Positions 10,476 to 21,364 of a stretch of DNA of 21,364 bases are shown here, one piece after another. A model generated the notes under the pieces. That model did no database searches. It had not been told where the DNA came from and was given only the letters and a program-made list of their open reading frames with translations. How positions within the stretch are numbered: the first letter of the stretch is position 1; each line of letters opens with the position of its first letter. Made by a program: the position numbers and the translations under genes. The DNA lies in the IMG/VR virus record IMGVR_UViG_3300021959_000488, positions 1 through 21,364 of that record. One strand, written 5' to 3'. The stretch is from a virus.

Positions 10476-10883
10476 ATGGCGGCACAAAAAGGCAAGGCTG
10501 TCCTAATCAAATTGGATCAAAGCGGCAGCCAGACTACTATAGGTGGTTTGCGAAGCTCATCTATCACCCTCAACGACGAGATGGTGGATGTAACAAATAA
10601 GGATACCGTGGGCAACAGCAGGGCGCTTCTTCCTCAAGGCGGGAATACTAGCGTAACTATTGCGGGGTCAGGTATTTTTACTGGGGTAAATACTGAAACT
10701 ACTTTAGAGACCTATTTTGCATCTGGCACCTTGAAGGCATATAGCTTCATTATTCCAGATTTCGGCACTTACGCCGGAAGTTTTCTTATTACTAACTTAG
10801 AGTATGGCGGCGAGTATAACGGAGAGGTTACCTACAGTGTAACCTTTGAGTCCTCGGGCGCGGTAACGTTTACTAACGCTTAA
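10476..10883 (+). CDS. Major tail tube protein, TP901-1 family (copy 1)
   Basis: This 135-aa protein is of the TP901-1 major tail protein family (beta-sandwich tube subunit that stacks as hexameric rings). It has the family features MAAQKGKAVLIKL, TIGGLRSSSITLNDEMVDVT and the C-terminal YAGSFLITNLEYGGEYNGEV with a TFESSG end. GGAG lies upstream. It is 14 nt from a close paralogue (10898-11299); by hand alignment I count about 78 identical positions of ~133. One copy probably builds the tube. The role of the other is open. Confidence 0.9.
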   Translation: MAAQKGKAVLIKLDQSGSQTTIGGLRSSSITLNDEMVDVTNKDTVGNSRALLPQGGNTSVTIAGSGIFTGVNTETTLETYFASGTLKAYSFIIPDFGTYAGSFLITNLEYGGEYNGEVTYSVTFESSGAVTFTNA

Positions 10884-10897
10884 TAGGAGAATAGATT

Positions 10898-11299
10898 ATG
10901 GCGGCTCAAAAAGGTAAAAGCTTACTCCTTAAGATAAATACCACAGGCTCCACCTATGTGACTATAGGCGGTCTCAGGTCTACCTCTGTATCCTTGAACG
11001 ATGAGATGGTAGATATCACCAACAAAGACAGCTCTAACGTTCGGGAAATATTAGCTGGTGCGGGCGTGAACTCTATCACTATTAGCGGCAGCGGCGTGTT
11101 CACTGATTCGGCGGCAGAAACGACTATAAAGGATAAAATGGGATCGGCAACTTTCTCAAATTATCAGCTAATTATTCCGGGTCACGGCACTTACGCCGGA
11201 GCTTTTCAGCTCACCAGTCTTGAGTATGCGGGCGAGTACAACGGGGAAGCTACTTACAGCTTAACGCTAGAATCTAGCGAAGCAGTAACATTCTCATAA
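10898..11299 (+). CDS. Major tail tube protein, TP901-1 family (copy 2)
   Basis: This 133-aa protein is a clear paralogue of the gene at 10476 (about 55-60% identity by hand, with the same ends: MAAQKGK, TIGGLRSTSVSLNDEMVDIT and AGAFQLTSLEYAGEYNGEA). It differs in the loop after NKD (one residue shorter) and in the central segment. AGGAG lies upstream. Either both form the tube, or one is a specialised subunit at the tube's end. The intact frames and conserved cores argue that both are in use. Confidence 0.88.
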   Translation: MAAQKGKSLLLKINTTGSTYVTIGGLRSTSVSLNDEMVDITNKDSSNVREILAGAGVNSITISGSGVFTDSAAETTIKDKMGSATFSNYQLIIPGHGTYAGAFQLTSLEYAGEYNGEATYSLTLESSEAVTFS

Positions 11300-11308
11300 G
11301 GAGCTATC

Positions 11309-11554
11309 ATGGCTTGGATTCAGGTAAATATTAGCCACGGCAAGATAGAAAGAGACGGAATGATGAAAGGCTCTCAGATTGTTGTGGGCCAAGACTTCTC
11401 TAAAGCGAAAACCATAAAAGTAAACGGTAAGCCTTTTGAGGTTGAAAGTTGCGAGATGGATGCCAGAGAAGAAAATTGGGTAATAGAGCTTTCAAACGAA
11501 AGCGTACAGGAGCAGTCAGATGACGAACCCGTTGAAGGGGGAGATGCTAGTTAG
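11309..11554 (+). CDS. Small protein of unknown function between tail tube and chaperone genes
   Basis: This 81-aa protein is acidic at the end (QEQSDDEPVEGGDAS) and has a small beta-like core (GQDFSKAKTIKVNGKPFEVESCEM). A GGAG precedes the ATG. Its last 35 nt overlap the chaperone gene, which starts in another frame with AGGAG inside this gene. The family is not identified. The position suggests a tail assembly or tube-associated role. Confidence 0.75.
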   Translation: MAWIQVNISHGKIERDGMMKGSQIVVGQDFSKAKTIKVNGKPFEVESCEMDAREENWVIELSNESVQEQSDDEPVEGGDAS

Positions 11555-11867
11555 TCTTGGCAAAGAAGAACATTCTTGCAGGCTTACAGTAGATTCTCTT
11601 ATAAAAATAGAAACAGCCTTGGATAAAGGCATTCTCCAGATTACGCAGAGATTATCTGACGGTGATGTTCGCATCAACGATCTCTCTGTAATTCTTTTCC
11701 ACGCCTTACGGGGCGGCGGCAATAATGTCTCCGACAAAGATGTAAAGCAAATCATACAAAAGTCGGGCATTGTTCCTTGTTGTAGCGCAGTCGCGCAATT
11801 ATTAGTTTCCACTCTTAGCGATCCGGAGGCGGAAAGCGAAGAAAAAAAGCAGGAGAGGGAGAGCTAG
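11520..11867 (+). CDS. Tail assembly chaperone, short form (GTA gp10-like)
   Basis: This 115-aa protein starts at the ATG at 11520, with AGGAG (11508-11512) 7 nt upstream. It resembles the GTA-gp10 / phage TAC_11 family: PLKGEMLVSLG, then LTVDSLIKIETALDKGILQI, DLSVILFHALRG and VSDKDVKQIIQKSGI. The C-terminus is a charged tail (EAESEEKKQERES). In siphophages this protein (lambda gpG equivalent) coats the tape measure during tube assembly and has a frameshifted longer form (gpGT). The sequence at 11843-11849 and the overlapping ORF that follows fit this, so the 115-aa product is the short form. Confidence 0.88.
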   Translation: MTNPLKGEMLVSLGKEEHSCRLTVDSLIKIETALDKGILQITQRLSDGDVRINDLSVILFHALRGGGNNVSDKDVKQIIQKSGIVPCCSAVAQLLVSTLSDPEAESEEKKQERES

Positions 11868-11892
11868 AACCTATTCAATGGAGGAGGTTCTA
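11825..11892 (+). promoter_or_regulatory. Programmed -1 frameshift cassette: SD-like site, slippery heptamer, downstream hairpin
   Basis: Three elements occur in order: GGAGG at 11825-11829 (Shine-Dalgarno-like, 13 nt upstream), the heptamer A AAA AAG at 11843-11849 in the correct phase, and an 8-bp inverted repeat TAGAACCT (11865-11872) / AGGTTCTA (11885-11892) with a 12-nt loop. A AAA AAG is the heptamer used by Escherichia coli dnaX, which also relies on an upstream Shine-Dalgarno-like element and a downstream stem. The hairpin here starts 15 nt after the heptamer, longer than usual, so its role is less certain. Confidence 0.8.
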
Positions 11893-12061
11893 CGAGGTTT
11901 GCGTGGGGATGGCTGGCATACAGCCCTCTGAGTTTTGGCAAATGTCTCCTGTAGAAATCTACTCCGTACTTACTGGATTTCAGGAGTTTAACGGAGGCTC
12001 AAAAGATCAGCCGATGAGCAGGTCTGAGCTAGACGAACTAATGGAGTTGAATCCAGACTAA
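11849..12061 (+). CDS. C-terminal part of the tail assembly chaperone, made by -1 frameshift (GTA gp10.1 / TAC_6-like)
   Basis: An open frame in -1 relative to the 11520 gene runs from the slippery site to TAA at 12059-12061. After AAA AAG it would continue AGEGELEPIQWRRFYEVC. The segment from QWRRFYEV through GIQPSEFWQMSPVEI to MSRSELDELMELNPD matches the small tail chaperone that follows gp10 in GTAs (TAC_6-like: W, then LGLSP-FW-MTP-E). Its conserved part begins before the only ATG (11909), so independent initiation there would remove the W and following helix; a GTG at 11903 is also possible but cuts the same region. A frameshift fusion is the better explanation. The stop overlaps the tape measure ATG by one base. 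Confidence 0.8.
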   Translation, partial: AGEGELEPIQWRRFYEVCVGMAGIQPSEFWQMSPVEIYSVLTGFQEFNGGSKDQPMSRSELDELMELNPD

Positions 12062-14409
12062 TGGCTACCGTAGAAGAACTTTTAATCCAAATCAAAGCCG
12101 ACACTAAAGGCCTTAAAACAGAGCTTGGTAGAGTCAAGCAAAGCCTTAATAGTAGTTTAGACCCTAAGCCTGTTAATAGGCTTGGAGCCTCCCTTAGAGG
12201 CTTGGCCGCTCCCTTGGCTGGAATAATAGCTGGACTTAGCGGAGTCGCGGCTGTAAGAGGTATAGCAAGAATAGGGTCAGAGTTTGAAGACTTAAAAGAT
12301 TCATTAAACACTGTTTTTGGGTCTATTAAAGCTGGAGATAGGGCTTTATCTCAAATCATAGAATTTGCCCAAACGACACCATTTCAAGTTGAAGATGTAA
12401 CAAAAGCTTTTATCTCGCTGAAATCGGCGGGCATAGAGCCAACTAAGGACATGCTTCAAACCTTTGCAGATACAGCCTCTGTATCAATAGACCAGCTAGG
12501 TATTTTTGAGGCGCTTGTAAGGATCACTCAAAGATCCGCATCAGGGGGGTTGGGTCTTGAAGAGCTTAATCAAATTATGGATCGCGGCGTTGATGTCCTT
12601 GGGATACTCAAAAGAGAGCTTTCTTTATCAAAAGACGAAATAGCAAAATTCGGCGCAACAGCAGACGGCGCAAGAATTATAATGAGCGCGTTGACAAAAG
12701 GGCTGAATGAGCAATTTGGGGGCGCAATGGCCTCCAAGATGGACAACTTATCAACAAAAGCAACCAACACAGAGATAGCATTTAAAGGATTGGCGGACGC
12801 TATATTTACTGGGGGCTTGGGCAATATGCTCAAAGATATGGCTGATTATTTTGCGCGGATAGCGGCATCTGCCAGCACTATAGTAGCGTCAGTAAGCTCG
12901 GGGGCGTCAATTAATACAGTGCAGATAGCTGGTCAAGGTGATCCTACTGAGACTCTAACCGCTTCTGTGGGCGACATGAGAGAAGCCATTCAAAACGAAT
13001 TACGCATGGATGTGCTTTTCAATGAGGCTCTAGCCCGTGGCGATAAAAGCATGGCTTCAACATATAGAAGCAGGCGAGAGGGTTTCCAAAAAGATTTAAC
13101 CGATCTTAGTGATTTTTTAGAAAAATCAGGTGTTGCGGCAGCAAGAATAGATGACGTTTTCTCCAAGATGGCGCGAGAAGAGCTTGAATTATTGTCAGTA
13201 GGCGAGGGAGATATCGCGGAAGCATTTGATAACTTTGTTCTTGGCGATGTTTTAGACAACGAGAAGGTTCGCAACTTTATAGCTGGCAGGCTCGCATTCA
13301 TTACCGCTGAAATAGAGAAGCAAACTGAGGCAATCCCTACCGTCGCTACCGGTGATGGAGACAGCAAAACGGGGACAACTACAACAGGCCCAAGTGCTGA
13401 GTTAATAGCCGCAAGAAAAACTGTTTCTGATTTAATCAAAGACACTATTACTCCAGCTCAAGAGCTTGCCTCTGCATATGACGCTTTGAAATTAGCCGAG
13501 GAATCTTTAGGTGATGGCTCCGAAATAACAGCAGAACAAATTGCATCAGTTAGAGATATGCTTGCCGGTATAGCGAGTGATATATCGGCAGGAGAGTTGG
13601 AAGAAAGCTTCGGCTCTCTTCAGTCTGTGATTGACGGAACCGTTACACCCTTAGAAACTTTAAATGCTCAGCTTAAGAAGCTCCAAGAAATAGCCGATTC
13701 AGGCGATGCGGAAGTTAAAAAGTTTATATTTGGCACCGATGACTCGCAAGAAATCGAAGAGTCGTTGAGTAGAGTCACTAGCGAAATAAAAGAGTTACAG
13801 GATAAAGGCGCAGATGCTGCTGAAACGTTCGCGCAAACAATGGCACCCGCAATAGCGCAGTTATCGCACACCTTTACAAATGATTTTGTTAACTCTTTGC
13901 TGTCAGGTAAAGATGCGCTTGAATCGTTCAAGAGCTTTGCCAAAAATATCGTTTCTCAAATTATAGCTACGTTCTTGCAGATGGCCGTTGTCAACCAGAT
14001 ACTTAACGCAGTCTTCTCATCTATCCCCGGCTTTCAGGCTCAACCAACAATGGGCTTTGGTGGGGGCGGTGGTGGCGGCGGTGTTGGCGGCGTGGGGATG
14101 GCTGGTGGGGCGGCCTCCGGCGGCGCAATGATCAGAGGAAGACCGTACTTGGTTGGCGAGCGTGGCCCAGAGATGTTCATTCCTCACACAGCCGGCACGT
14201 TAAAAAATGGTAATGACACCAAAAGCATGATGTCAGGTGGCGATACTTTCGTAGTAAATCAGAGCTTAAATTTCTCGACGGGCGTAGTCCCAACGGTAAG
14301 GGCTGAGATTCAAAAAATGTTGCCTCAAATCAGTGATGTCACCAAAACGGCAGTGCTTGAGTCTACAAGACGAGGCGGGACATACAGAAAAGGATTATTA
14401 GGTGCCTAA
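12061..14409 (+). CDS. Tail tape measure protein
   Basis: This 782-aa protein sets tail length and is later ejected with the DNA. The N-terminal part is helical (ELLIQIKADTKGLKTELGRV), followed by a hydrophobic segment around 49-70, and a conserved block including FEDLKDSLNTVFGS, FAQTTPFQVEDVTKAFISLKS and NQIMDRGVDVLG. The middle is a long helical region. A hydrophobic segment occurs near 630-655, then a Gly-rich stretch (~666-690) and YLVGERGPEMF (Y696 onward), the typical tape measure end motif. At the accepted figure of roughly 0.15 nm per residue, the tail would be near 115-120 nm. The start lies in a TAATG overlap, so it is coupled to the frameshift gene; GGAG 14 nt upstream is far. Confidence 0.95.
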   Translation: MATVEELLIQIKADTKGLKTELGRVKQSLNSSLDPKPVNRLGASLRGLAAPLAGIIAGLSGVAAVRGIARIGSEFEDLKDSLNTVFGSIKAGDRALSQIIEFAQTTPFQVEDVTKAFISLKSAGIEPTKDMLQTFADTASVSIDQLGIFEALVRITQRSASGGLGLEELNQIMDRGVDVLGILKRELSLSKDEIAKFGATADGARIIMSALTKGLNEQFGGAMASKMDNLSTKATNTEIAFKGLADAIFTGGLGNMLKDMADYFARIAASASTIVASVSSGASINTVQIAGQGDPTETLTASVGDMREAIQNELRMDVLFNEALARGDKSMASTYRSRREGFQKDLTDLSDFLEKSGVAAARIDDVFSKMAREELELLSVGEGDIAEAFDNFVLGDVLDNEKVRNFIAGRLAFITAEIEKQTEAIPTVATGDGDSKTGTTTTGPSAELIAARKTVSDLIKDTITPAQELASAYDALKLAEESLGDGSEITAEQIASVRDMLAGIASDISAGELEESFGSLQSVIDGTVTPLETLNAQLKKLQEIADSGDAEVKKFIFGTDDSQEIEESLSRVTSEIKELQDKGADAAETFAQTMAPAIAQLSHTFTNDFVNSLLSGKDALESFKSFAKNIVSQIIATFLQMAVVNQILNAVFSSIPGFQAQPTMGFGGGGGGGGVGGVGMAGGAASGGAMIRGRPYLVGERGPEMFIPHTAGTLKNGNDTKSMMSGGDTFVVNQSLNFSTGVVPTVRAEIQKMLPQISDVTKTAVLESTRRGGTYRKGLLGA

Positions 14410-15902: not shown

Positions 15903-16316
15903 ATGAAGAAGCAATCAAATTGGGATGATGCCTTGCATCAATTTTTGGTAAGGCACAAAAAAACCCCTTTTGAGTGGGGCAAATGGGATTGCTGCCTGTT
16001 TAGTGATGCCGCAATAAAAGCAATGACAGGGGAACGCTTAATCCCGATTACGCTAAACTGGCGAGATGAGCCGTCAGCAAAAGAGGCTATAAAAAATTAC
16101 GGCGGCACTTTAGGGAAGAGCATAGAAAAGGCGGCGACGGCAAAAGGCTTGCTTAAGGTTGAAGAGGCGCAGAAAGGCGATCTAGTGGTAATTAAAGAGA
16201 ACGGTTCTGAGGTTGCAGGAATCAGTTATGGGGATAATGTTTTATGCCCTTCTGATAACGGTTTCACAAGGAAGAAAAACGACCTAATTAAAATGGTGTT
16301 TAGAATAAATGGCTAA
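15903..16316 (+). CDS. NlpC/P60-like tail peptidase, DUF6950-like (possibly inactive)
   Basis: This 137-aa protein corresponds in position to GTA gp14, a tail-tip peptidase acting on peptidoglycan. The N-terminal part (NWDDALHQFLVRHKKTPFEW, then GKWDCCLFSDAAIKAMTG) has the conserved WG-x-DC motif with Cys30/Cys31 as the candidate nucleophile. The rest has KEAIKNYGG, QKGDLVVIKENG and AGISYG, where an active NlpC/P60 enzyme would have a His. No His is present in that region, so the catalytic set looks incomplete and the protein could be structural. Overlap with the following gene is 8 nt. Confidence 0.8.
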   Translation: MKKQSNWDDALHQFLVRHKKTPFEWGKWDCCLFSDAAIKAMTGERLIPITLNWRDEPSAKEAIKNYGGTLGKSIEKAATAKGLLKVEEAQKGDLVVIKENGSEVAGISYGDNVLCPSDNGFTRKKNDLIKMVFRING

Positions 16317-19300
16317 AGTAATTAAAGCGGCGCTTATTGCGGCAGCAGTGGTAGCTCTTACCATTGTAACCTTAGGAGCTAGTCTTCCGGCCTTGTTTGT
16401 CGGCACAAGCGCTCTTGCCGGCCTGCATGTCGCGTTGCAGTATGCGATTGTTACTTTTGTTGGGTCGGTTATAGCTGGCGGCGTAGGAATGCTAACCAGC
16501 AAGGGAATTGAAGCCACCGCTCAAAACTTCGGGTCAAAGATAACCGGAACGGGCGCTCAAGTTCCTAGACAAATAGTCTACGGTGAGACCCGCATAGCGG
16601 GAAACATCGTTAGAATGAGAACTTCTGGCGATGAAAATAACACCCTCAATGTGGCTATCGTATTAGCGGGACATGAAATTGAGTCTTTAGAGGGTGTTTA
16701 TTTTGACACTACTCTTATAACTACTACGACATCAACGCTTCACAGCGAAACTGTATACAGCGCATCAAATGCGGATTTTGTTAACACGGACAACGGTAAC
16801 GCTTTTACGGGCGGAAGCTTGGTTCAGTACACTTTTCATGATGGAAGTCAGACAGCGGTAGATGGCTATGCCGCCAGCCTTACCAGCGTAGGTCTTAACT
16901 ATGATACAAATTCCAAGTTTCAGGGCATGGCTTATGTTTTTATGCGCCTTGTTTATGATCCGGAAAAACTTACATCTATCCCTAAGATTTGGTTCAAAGT
17001 TAAAGGAAAGAAGGTATACGATCCAAGAAATTCAACAACAGCTTGGTCTAAAAACCCCGCGCTAATAGTTCGCGATTTTTTGGTTGATACTACCTACGGC
17101 TTAAAATGTGTGTCTGGAGAGATTAACGATGCAAATGTAGTTGGTGGTTTTCACAAGGCCGCTGATATTTGCGATCAACAGGTTGTTTTGGCTAACGGCT
17201 CGTCTTATGAAAACAGATATACGTCGAGCGGCTTTACTAACGGATCCGCAAGCTTAGATGGAGTTCTTGAAGGGATATTAACTTCTTGCTCCGGCTCAAT
17301 ATCTTACACAAACGGGAAATTTAATCTTTTTGTGGGAGGCGATCAATCAGCCTCTCTTACTATTAGAGATGATGATTTGCTCGCGCCTGTCAGCATAACT
17401 ACGAAATCTTCGGGAGGAGATTTATACAACTCTGTCAAGGCTTTGCATATTGATCCGTCGAACAACTATCAAGGGGTAGAATCTCCAATACTTACTAGCT
17501 CTTCATACTTGGCGGCAGATACTCCGACAGGAGAGGCAACGGCTAACTTTAAAAAGACGCTAGAAATTCAGCTTCCTTTTACGACTAAATCAACTGAAGC
17601 TCAAAGGCTGCAAAAGATTGCGCTTATTCGTCAAAGGCAAACCACAACAATATCAGCCCTTGTTTCCTTGGAGTTCATGCAGTTGCAGCCTAATGACTGG
17701 GTTTATTTGGTCAATGATAGGTTGAATTTTGGTGAAAGCTATAATGGCACAGGAAACCCCAAAACATTTGAAGTTAAATCCATGCAAATGGAGTTTTTTG
17801 ACAACGAAGGGGTTATTTTTGCAGGAACAAGGCTGGTTCTTCAGGAGATAGACGACACTGTTTATGATTACGTTGCCTCGGATTATCAAAGCGAGGTAGC
17901 AGATTCATCTCAGCCAAGCACTGGAAACTTGTCTATCTCCGCTCCAACTATTGTTGGCTCTCAGGGTTTGACCCAAAGAAGCAGAATAGAAGGGCCAACA
18001 GCCAAGATAGATATTATAGCGACTTGGACTAATAATTCAGATGAGGCCATACAGGGTACAGAGATACAGTTTAAGGAAAGCACCGACTCAGATTATTCAG
18101 TTGTTACTATAGCGGGAAAGGCTTCCTCTTCAGCGGTTATACCGAACGTTAGTGTCGCTAAAGCATACGATGTTCGCATCAGACATTTTTCTTGGGACAA
18201 CGTAACATCTGGGTTTACTTCTTACAGTCAAATAACGATAGCCCAACCCGACACCGTGGCGGCCCCTACAAATTTTGCCGCTACCACTGACAAGCCTTTT
18301 TTCTCAGAGCTTACTTGGACTAATCCAGCAAACACTAACCTAAGAGCGGTTGAGGTTCATTTTTCAACGACTTCAGGATTCACTCCCAACTCCGGAACGC
18401 TGCTTAACACCTATTACGGCGATGTAGGCAAAACCAAGAAAGTTATCCTAGGAGTGTCGGCGGGGCTTTCATACGATACTAATTATTACTTTTTAGCTCG
18501 CTCAATAAACGTGTATGGATCAGCAAGCGGGTACACTTCTCAAGTAACCGGAAAGTTCAGGAAGGCTCAAAACGCAGATGTTGAAGAGCTAAACGCTTCA
18601 GCTATAACGGCAGGCACTATAGATGCCAGCTCTATAACTGTAGAGAACATAGATGCAGCAAAAATAACGGCGAACGAATTAAATCTGAGCGTCATACCCA
18701 GCTCCGTGGTTTTTACTTCAGAACTTTCCGACAACACCACGATAATTTCTGGCGGAAATATCAAGACGGGAAGTATTACCCTGTCAACAACAACTAATAG
18801 CGGTCTAGGCTCTCTTAAGGCGGGAAAAACATCTTACGAAGATACAACCACGGCAGGGTACTATCTAGGGTTTGTTGGAACTGGATCAGACGCTGGAGAT
18901 GCTGCATTTTCCATTGGCAACGCGACCAGCGGCCTAACTTACACGCCGGTTTCGGGTTTGACAGTCACTGGTAATCTTTCAGCGACAACCGGAGCTATTG
19001 GCGGCTTTTCAATACAAACCGACTATATTAAAGATGCCGCTGACTCTATGGGTCTAGCCTCAACGGTTACAGGGGGCGATGATGTAAGGTTTTGGGCCGG
19101 AAATACATTCGCAAACAGGGCATCAGCTCCTTTTCGGGTTACGGAGGCGGGTGTAGTCACTGCCTCATCAGGGGCTATCGGCGGGTTCACTCTGTCGGGA
19201 ACAAGCCTTATTGCTGGCTCTGGGGTCACTAGAGTCTCTCTGTCGACTGCTGACGGGATTAGCCTAGGTAACAACACGTTTGCATCAGCGCCATTCAGGG

Positions 19301-21364
19301 TTGATCGTGCTGGAGCTTTGACCGCAACAAACGCAACGATAACAGGCGCTGTTACAGCAACATCAGGAACCTTCACGGGAACTGTCAACGCAAACGCTGG
19401 CGCATTCACTGGAGACGTTTCCACCGACTCAAAGTTTATTGCTGGAACAGGTGACGCGACAACCGTTATTGATGGCGAAGCCTCTGCAACTTATAGAATA
19501 TTTAGCGGAGCGGCTCAAACTGAAAGTGAGAATGCGCCATTTCAAGTTAAGCCTGACGGTTCTGTTTTCGCTAAAAATATTACAGTGTTTGATTCGTCTG
19601 GAAACATCCTGCTTGATCAAGACGGACTAGGCGCAGCGGCGCTGGCTGGAATATCGCTTACTTCAGGAACGGCAGTTGACAAGGTAAGCGGCGTTTTATC
19701 TGGCGACGGTGGTGAGATGACGCTGACGCTAGATCAAACTGCGACAGTAACCTTAGAGACCAAATTCGCGATTTACGACAATTCAGTAGGCACCTTGTAT
19801 TTGCGCGGTACTGGAGCGTCATCCTCCGCTGCATTATCAGACATAACAAATTCAACGCTAAACATTATTTATAGCTTGCAGACTGATGGCGGCTCATATT
19901 CCACTGCCGCAACAAAACCAATAACATTCACAAGCACCGACTCAACGCCAAGCTCTACCGAAGTTTATGTTACTGCGGCTCTGATTTCTGGTTCGTATTT
20001 GACGATCTTGGTAGACGCTGGTGGCGCATTAGAATACATCGCAAATACTAGCACCTACGGCGCAACTGCTTACGTTGTAACTAGTCACACTTTTACCAAT
20101 CTAGCGGCTGGCGTTCACAAGGTAAAATTGTCATCTACGATAACGGGATCGGGCTCACCTGACGCTGCTGGTCAGTCAACATCAAATCGTTTATACGAAT
20201 TAACATCATCAGCAATTAACTTTGTTGAAAGTGCTGCAAATGTTTTTGCTAATGGTTCGCCTTCAGTACCTTCTGGCGGCGGCACAGTGTCAGGCAACTT
20301 AATTATTAGCGGTGACTTAACTGTAAACGGCACAACAACAACACTGAACACACAAACCCTCGACGTAGAAGACAAAAATATAACAGTCAACTACGGGGCT
20401 GGCGATACTTCCGCATCAGCGGACGGTGCTGGCTTTACGATTCAAGACGCAGTCAACTCCACCACCGATGCAACGCTCCTCTGGAAGACCGCGACAGATA
20501 CTTTTGAGTTTAGCCATCCGATCAAAGCTCAGTCGGATTTAACGCTTTCATCCGCTGGCGGTGACGCAGGAATCTATTGGAAAGACAGCAGCGCATCAGA
20601 CGCAACCGCTTGGCATCTTCACGCTGATGTCACGCAAGCAACAACCAATTTGCTTCTGAATTATGCGGGCGGCGGCACTAACTTCTCATTCGTCAACAAC
20701 GGTAATTTCTTAGCGCCCGGCACAATCTTCGCGGACGGTGCTGCGTCTAATTCGCTGCAGTGGGAAGCTGGGTATGATTATTCGCAAGTGGGTCATCTAC
20801 CGTTAGCCGGTGGTAACCTTACTGGAAATGTTAGATTCGGAAACACAAGCGTTGGCACTGAAGACGATAGCGAATATCTGCTGTCAACGGGCGGCCAGTT
20901 GATCATCAGAGCGAACGATTCTGCTGCTGATGATTCGTACACATATCTAATTCTAGATTCAGGCAACGCAAGCGGCGCAGCGTCCGCATATGCTGGCGTA
21001 ATGACACGCACAAACGGCGTTGAACGATTTCGTGTCGGAGGCGATGGCACGATTAAGTTCTTTGAGGATACCGGAACGACCGCGAAGCTGGTCTGGAATC
21101 CGACATCTGAAGAATTCCAGTTTGCTGATAACGTCAAGGCCATCTTCGGCGCTGGCAGTGACTTACAGATTTATCATAATGGTGGCGACAGTCTAATTGC
21201 TGACACAGGCACAGGTGATTTATACATACGCGGTTCTAACAATATCTTTCTTCAAAAAGGCGATGGGTCTGAAACATTTATTTCTACTGCTGATGATGGT
21301 GCCGTCACACTTCATTACGACAACGCAGCCAAACTAGCCACCAGCTCCACAGGTATTCAGGTCA
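16309..21364 (+). CDS. Giant tail-tip / host specificity protein (J-like, GTA gp15-like), partial
   Basis: The frame opens at the ATG at 16309 and stays open to the window edge: 1685 codons and no stop, so the true protein is longer. The N-terminus has two hydrophobic segments (~5-33 and ~40-62) and then the VPRQIVYGETRIAGNIVRM block, typical of J-like tip proteins. A conserved tip core follows (DPEKL, IWFKVKGKKVYDPR, NPALIVRDFLVDTTYG, LTSCSGSISY). Around 545-745 there are two fibronectin type III-like domains, then a helix-rich linker (ASAITAGTIDASSI). The C-terminal half is fibre-like, with three APFRV-type repeats at about 940, 994 and 1076, GAIGGF repeats, and a segment (~1325-1375) with GDLTVNGTTTTLNTQTLDVE, a fibre motif I associate with marine phages. 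It probably contacts the host receptor. Confidence 0.9.
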   Translation, partial: MAKVIKAALIAAAVVALTIVTLGASLPALFVGTSALAGLHVALQYAIVTFVGSVIAGGVGMLTSKGIEATAQNFGSKITGTGAQVPRQIVYGETRIAGNIVRMRTSGDENNTLNVAIVLAGHEIESLEGVYFDTTLITTTTSTLHSETVYSASNADFVNTDNGNAFTGGSLVQYTFHDGSQTAVDGYAASLTSVGLNYDTNSKFQGMAYVFMRLVYDPEKLTSIPKIWFKVKGKKVYDPRNSTTAWSKNPALIVRDFLVDTTYGLKCVSGEINDANVVGGFHKAADICDQQVVLANGSSYENRYTSSGFTNGSASLDGVLEGILTSCSGSISYTNGKFNLFVGGDQSASLTIRDDDLLAPVSITTKSSGGDLYNSVKALHIDPSNNYQGVESPILTSSSYLAADTPTGEATANFKKTLEIQLPFTTKSTEAQRLQKIALIRQRQTTTISALVSLEFMQLQPNDWVYLVNDRLNFGESYNGTGNPKTFEVKSMQMEFFDNEGVIFAGTRLVLQEIDDTVYDYVASDYQSEVADSSQPSTGNLSISAPTIVGSQGLTQRSRIEGPTAKIDIIATWTNNSDEAIQGTEIQFKESTDSDYSVVTIAGKASSSAVIPNVSVAKAYDVRIRHFSWDNVTSGFTSYSQITIAQPDTVAAPTNFAATTDKPFFSELTWTNPANTNLRAVEVHFSTTSGFTPNSGTLLNTYYGDVGKTKKVILGVSAGLSYDTNYYFLARSINVYGSASGYTSQVTGKFRKAQNADVEELNASAITAGTIDASSITVENIDAAKITANELNLSVIPSSVVFTSELSDNTTIISGGNIKTGSITLSTTTNSGLGSLKAGKTSYEDTTTAGYYLGFVGTGSDAGDAAFSIGNATSGLTYTPVSGLTVTGNLSATTGAIGGFSIQTDYIKDAADSMGLASTVTGGDDVRFWAGNTFANRASAPFRVTEAGVVTASSGAIGGFTLSGTSLIAGSGVTRVSLSTADGISLGNNTFASAPFRVDRAGALTATNATITGAVTATSGTFTGTVNANAGAFTGDVSTDSKFIAGTGDATTVIDGEASATYRIFSGAAQTESENAPFQVKPDGSVFAKNITVFDSSGNILLDQDGLGAAALAGISLTSGTAVDKVSGVLSGDGGEMTLTLDQTATVTLETKFAIYDNSVGTLYLRGTGASSSAALSDITNSTLNIIYSLQTDGGSYSTAATKPITFTSTDSTPSSTEVYVTAALISGSYLTILVDAGGALEYIANTSTYGATAYVVTSHTFTNLAAGVHKVKLSSTITGSGSPDAAGQSTSNRLYELTSSAINFVESAANVFANGSPSVPSGGGTVSGNLIISGDLTVNGTTTTLNTQTLDVEDKNITVNYGAGDTSASADGAGFTIQDAVNSTTDATLLWKTATDTFEFSHPIKAQSDLTLSSAGGDAGIYWKDSSASDATAWHLHADVTQATTNLLLNYAGGGTNFSFVNNGNFLAPGTIFADGAASNSLQWEAGYDYSQVGHLPLAGGNLTGNVRFGNTSVGTEDDSEYLLSTGGQLIIRANDSAADDSYTYLILDSGNASGAASAYAGVMTRTNGVERFRVGGDGTIKFFEDTGTTAKLVWNPTSEEFQFADNVKAIFGAGSDLQIYHNGGDSLIADTGTGDLYIRGSNNIFLQKGDGSETFISTADDGAVTLHYDNAAKLATSSTGIQV

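Follow-up and report, generated by a model that had tools for sequence, protein, structure and literature searches.

A -1 ribosomal frameshift is predicted to fuse two GTA-type tail assembly chaperones in an uncultured phage

The slip site of the lambda tail assembly chaperone genes G/GT, reportedly studied by Xu, Hendrix and Duda, is G GGA AAG. A -1 frameshift in tail chaperone genes is an event of a well-known kind; the lambda chaperones have been reviewed, and their G:GT ratio is 30:1 (PMC5009743). An HK97-type cluster likewise has a frameshift-fused tail chaperone, and frameshifting measured for two HK97-type chaperone genes was 6-7% (PMC3711429). The E. coli dnaX signal combines the heptamer A AAA AAG, set inside an A7G run, a Shine-Dalgarno-like (SD-like) element 10 nt upstream of it and a hairpin 6 nt downstream (PMC11162774). 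We examined how a locus from an uncultured phage compares with these systems. The DNA is a stretch of 21,364 nt from the IMG/VR virus record IMGVR_UViG_3300021959_000488, referred to below as the window. Its gene order runs from tandem tail tube genes through a small ORF to a first chaperone, a second ORF that overlaps the first in the -1 frame, and the tape measure gene:

10476-10883, tail tube protein, first paralogue (PF06199)
10898..11299, + strand, tail tube protein, second of two paralogues (PF06199 Phage_tail_2, E 1.2e-36)
11309-11554, small ORF
11520..11867, + strand, first tail assembly chaperone, 115 aa, GTA-gp10 type (PF11836 Phage_TAC_11, E 3.1e-16)
11825..11829, + strand, SD-like GGAGG, possible stimulator (anti-SD pairing -10.3 kcal/mol)
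11843..11849, + strand, slippery heptamer A AAA AAG, read in the sequence inside the A7G run 11842-11849
11849..12061, + strand, -1 frame with TAC_6 domain, 70 aa past the slip site (PF09550 Phage_TAC_6)
11865..11867, + strand, zero-frame stop TAG of the first chaperone, read in the sequence
11865..11892, + strand, 8-bp hairpin, doubtful stimulator (MFE -11.4 kcal/mol, z -1.5 in 50-nt context)
12061..14409, + strand, tape measure protein gene (PF20155 TMP_3, E 5.6e-17)

As in lambda, two overlapping ORFs lie between the tail tube and tape measure genes, and a -1 slip late in the first is predicted to give a short form and a minor fusion. The chaperone families differ from those of lambda, being TAC_11 and TAC_6 here, and the heptamer is A AAA AAG rather than G GGA AAG, although GGGAAAG is found in 16-20 relatives. 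Both family assignments exceed their curated cut-offs: the first chaperone scores 59.7 bits against PF11836 (cut-off 27.8) and the -1 frame 37.8 bits (E 2.5e-9) against PF09550 (cut-off 23.4). By analogy, the first chaperone would be the functional equivalent of lambda G and the TAC_6 part that of lambda T. The tape measure protein is the expected client of both chaperones, and the tail tube protein encoded at 10898..11299 is the expected partner of the TAC_6 part. The two tail tube paralogues are 58% identical. The HK97-type cluster is likened to this locus by description, not by sequence. The gene transfer agent pair g10/g10.1 shares both Pfam families and their order. A nucleotide search of isolated phages and an Rfam search returned no match, a PDB search gave no convincing relative, and a profile search of genome contigs with alignment A1 found no relative. 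Elsewhere in the window, downstream of the tail tip genes, a single ORF of at least 1685 aa (16309-21363) runs off the contig end.

The heptamer lies in the X XXY YYZ phase, because the zero frame reads GAA (11841), AAA (11844) and AAG (11847). After it the -1 frame continues GCA GGA GAG, and that frame is free of stops from 11819 to a TAA at 12059-12061, whose last base is also the first base of the tape measure ATG (12061). Taking the sequence comparisons together, we conclude with a probability of about 0.93 that the two chaperones are fused by programmed -1 ribosomal frameshifting, as in lambda G/GT. Slippage probably occurs in this phage. The majority of ribosomes would stop at TAG 11865 and release the 115-aa GTA-gp10-like chaperone, and a minority, perhaps a few per cent by analogy, would slip back one base. 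Two tRNA-Lys would re-pair from AAA AAG to AAA AAA at 11843-11848, and the slipped ribosomes would resume at GCA 11849 to produce a fusion of 180 aa that includes the TAC_6 domain. If lambda is a guide, the short form would bind the tape measure protein and the fusion would recruit the tail tube protein. In an E. coli test mRNA, A7G also yielded a low-level -2 product (PMC11162774). At the A7G run of the window the -2 frame is open to 11931.

When the sequence is shuffled by dinucleotides, 14.5% of the shuffles have a strict in-phase slippery heptamer within the final 40 nt, so its presence in a single sequence is weak evidence alone, and it is conservation across relatives that decides. Seven profile searches of IMG/VR viral contigs gave 185 distinct loci with both domains, and TAC_6 lies in the -1 frame at 177 of them. 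From the first three of these searches we assembled a set of 80 distinct loci with the -1 geometry, less than 90% identical to one another. An in-phase slippery heptamer is present in 79 of the 80, compared with 6.9-10.6 expected. The types are AAAAAAG (49), GGGAAAG (16), GGGAAAC (8), AAAAAAA (3) and AAAAAAC (3), and tandem tRNA slippage accounts for every one. The single -1-geometry locus lacking a canonical heptamer (L053) has GGAAAAG in phase, perhaps as a degenerate slip site. The heptamer type switched about 14 times on the 96-sequence tree, each time to another slippery type, a pattern that suggests selection acting on slipperiness rather than on a particular sequence.

The reading frames of the relatives agree with entry by slippage. 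None of the 79 heptamer-bearing relatives has a start codon in the -1 frame ahead of the heptamer, and in 39 of them a stop shuts that frame within 3 nt upstream of it. The closest relative (L003, 80%) is one with such a stop, so its -1 frame can be entered only at or after the heptamer. Past the heptamer, the window and L003 differ mainly at third codon positions when read in the -1 frame, a bias that the zero frame does not show. The preliminary description had read A AAA AAG in the right phase at 11843-11849, a -1 frame open to 12061, and conserved TAC_6 residues ahead of the first usable ATG, and had proposed that a -1 frameshift joins two tail chaperones. The heptamer and its phase are read directly in the sequence, the frame closes where it was said to, and the residues IQWRRFYE precede both GTG 11903 and ATG 11909. 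The proposal itself is strongly supported by the protein families, the phase, the lack of an alternative start, and the conservation of heptamer and phase in related phages, the comparison that had been suggested.

That description had also likened the site to dnaX, with three elements in place; in a stronger form of this likeness, the hairpin that begins in the stop would stimulate frameshifting and be tied to termination. All three elements are indeed present in the window. The spacings differ from those of dnaX, at 13 nt for the SD-like element and 15 nt for the hairpin versus 10 and 6. The dnaX protein is unrelated to tail chaperones, and its frameshift leads to a shorter product, whereas the predicted frameshift here leads to a longer one.

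For the SD-like element, the pairing energy in the window compares with an average of -6.5 kcal/mol for synonymous recodings, 8% of which equal it. Across 89 relatives the mean is -7.7 kcal/mol versus -6.8 kcal/mol for synonymous controls, a comparison uncorrected for relatedness. Because synonymous recoding of the Glu/Gly-rich protein tail already gives -6.8, only a small share can come from selection on the RNA, and the recurrence of the element is mostly explained by that tail. Strong selection for an SD was rejected on the same grounds: an apparent excess on codon shuffles (-7.8 vs -4.2) shrinks to the modest one seen on synonymous controls. The GGAGG reported earlier is thus present 13 nt upstream and common in relatives, with a modest excess over synonymous controls, and it may raise frameshift efficiency.

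The hairpin fares less well. It is formed by an inverted repeat, TAGAACCT at 11865-11872 and AGGTTCTA at 11885-11892, with a 12-nt loop. A perfect 8-bp stem within 60 nt after the heptamer occurs in 0.3% of mononucleotide shuffles; the whole window holds six such stems, and the 50-nt fold around this one is unexceptional. L003 retains seven of the eight pairs (one as G-U, with one A-A mismatch), but its fold differs and the window hairpin is not predicted there. The remaining clade members with a usable alignment retain 4-7 of the eight (L216 and L217, anchored on the wrong TGG, were left out). Retained pairs lie largely in TAGA/TCTA, which is constrained by coding (L-E and F-Y codons). We found no conserved downstream structure at the window site among the clade members compared, and we rejected conservation of the hairpin. 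Taken together, the AAAAAAG loci show no stronger folding than control stretches, with z -0.6 compared with -0.8 to +0.2.

What speaks for a stimulator comes from the GGGAAAG subgroup, in which a covarying stem starts from the stop codon at the same 15-nt distance. Six loci (L018, L119, L128, L149, L109 and L130) have a 6-bp stem from the zero-frame stop downstream of GGGAAAG, in the variants AGCTGA/TCAGCT, AGCCGA/TCGGCT and AACTGA/TCAGTT; read by hand, two pairs are altered on both sides. In L018 the fold has a z of -5.3, and the 6-bp stem is part of a much longer one. Downstream folds at GGGAAAG sites average z -3.0 vs -0.6, or -2.2 vs -0.5 with more loci. Against extending this to the window, the 3' arms are not homologous, since they run up to the W in the GGGAAAG subgroup and lie after the W in the window. 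We also rejected compensation by a stem at GGGAAAG sites, which independent tree pairs did not bear out (4 usable, median p 1). We therefore consider a dnaX-like signal with a functional, termination-linked hairpin unlikely, and the window hairpin is probably minor or incidental. Among the three elements first likened to dnaX, the heptamer stands and the SD-like element does so in part; the 8-bp repeat exists, but its stem is not kept in the clade, and nothing supports a coupling of its folding to termination at the TAG, as had been suggested.

Separate translation of TAC_6 from GTG 11903 or ATG 11909, with no frameshifting, is far less probable still. These are the earliest usable -1-frame starts; both are in frame, and a GAGG at 11894-11897 lies upstream of the GTG. 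Both also lie inside the TAC_6 domain, so that the conserved IQWRRFYE would be cut off. In addition, the GTG is missing in L003, the ATG encodes the conserved Met of the domain (CVGM), and the heptamers of 79 of the 80 relatives would be left unexplained. We rejected either start because it truncates the domain, and the window offers none from which the whole second domain could be made.

Equally hard to credit is slippage by RNA polymerase within the A7 run (11842-11848), by which a gained or lost base would let some mRNAs encode the fusion in one frame. A8-A9 runs in six of the 79 relatives would suit it, but the run at the same place has three As in 24 of the 79 and six in 18, where polymerase slippage is not expected. 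These A3 (among them GGGAAAG) and A6 orthologues all hold the ribosomal X XXY YYZ phase; they argue against transcriptional slippage, and we rejected it as the general mechanism.

The ribosomal frameshift is not shared by every relative. Six distinct contig sequences (L006, L007, L009, L013, L014 and L015), with first chaperones 55-65% identical to that of the window, have no heptamer. In these, TAC_6 occupies the +1 frame and has its own ATG, located 11-20 nt ahead of the first-gene stop, that gives a complete domain, for example MSKNSQPNQIDWQRLYQVCVGM. This ATG is without an SD (-2.9 to +0.4 kcal/mol, compared with about -8 for the first gene there). Two further loci (L079 and L265), in which the +1 relation resembles a contig indel, were left out of the own-start count. 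The six sequences form one clade (support 95/92), sister to a heptamer-bearing group of 13 rows that includes the window and has moderate support itself (89/72). Together they make a 19-row clade (96/98), and the difference amounts to one change on the tree. The simplest reading of these alignments is one derived loss of frameshifting with gain of an overlapping weak start, and a +1 or -2 frameshift in the sister clade instead is possible. Relatives that lack the heptamer and have a separate second start had been named in advance as evidence against a frameshift. They exist, in another lineage, and the window has no such start; because this is a single derived change elsewhere, frameshifting in the window is not refuted.

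Similar variety appears in the wider family. Two more distant phages related at the tail tube gene (OP947159 and MW202777) have the same arrangement with GGGAAAC, and two others (MW462191 and MW091529) have AAACCCT immediately ahead of the stop; in all four the chaperones are annotated as separate genes with no join. Some alphaproteobacterial genome loci, which resemble gene transfer agent g10/g10.1, carry an in-phase heptamer (GGGAAAG, GGGAAAC, CCCTTTC or AAACCCT, as raw occurrences). Others, such as L170, L171 and L177, lack a heptamer and carry an ATG instead, within or close to the stop codon of g10, the first gene. In five alphaproteobacterial loci (L175, L179, L180, L182 and L183), in-phase CCCTTTC/TTTCCCT falls within the codons of the conserved TAC_6 motif PFPW; either an unusual kind of slip site or a coincidence of the coding is possible. 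In four loci (L166, L167, L202 and L187), where TAC_6 is in the -1 frame, an in-phase A AAC CCT abuts the stop codon of the GTA-gp10-like ORF or ends one codon short of it.

Taken together, the phage locus is ordinary in kind and solid in evidence, a further lambda-type tail chaperone frameshift, and it documents a well-conserved -1 frameshift in the TAC_11/TAC_6 (GTA-type) pair across many uncultured phages. We lean slightly towards the view that the frameshift fusing the chaperones is evolutionarily replaceable, with the sister clade having swapped it for a +1-frame TAC_6 with its own start. If so, the covalent link between the chaperones would be dispensable, and a low ratio of second to first domain could be held by weak coupled re-initiation and not by slippage. 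The five heptamer types and a sister clade apparently without frameshifting form a natural comparison set, which would allow a test of whether tail assembly of the lambda type depends on the fusion itself or just on the right ratio of the two domains.
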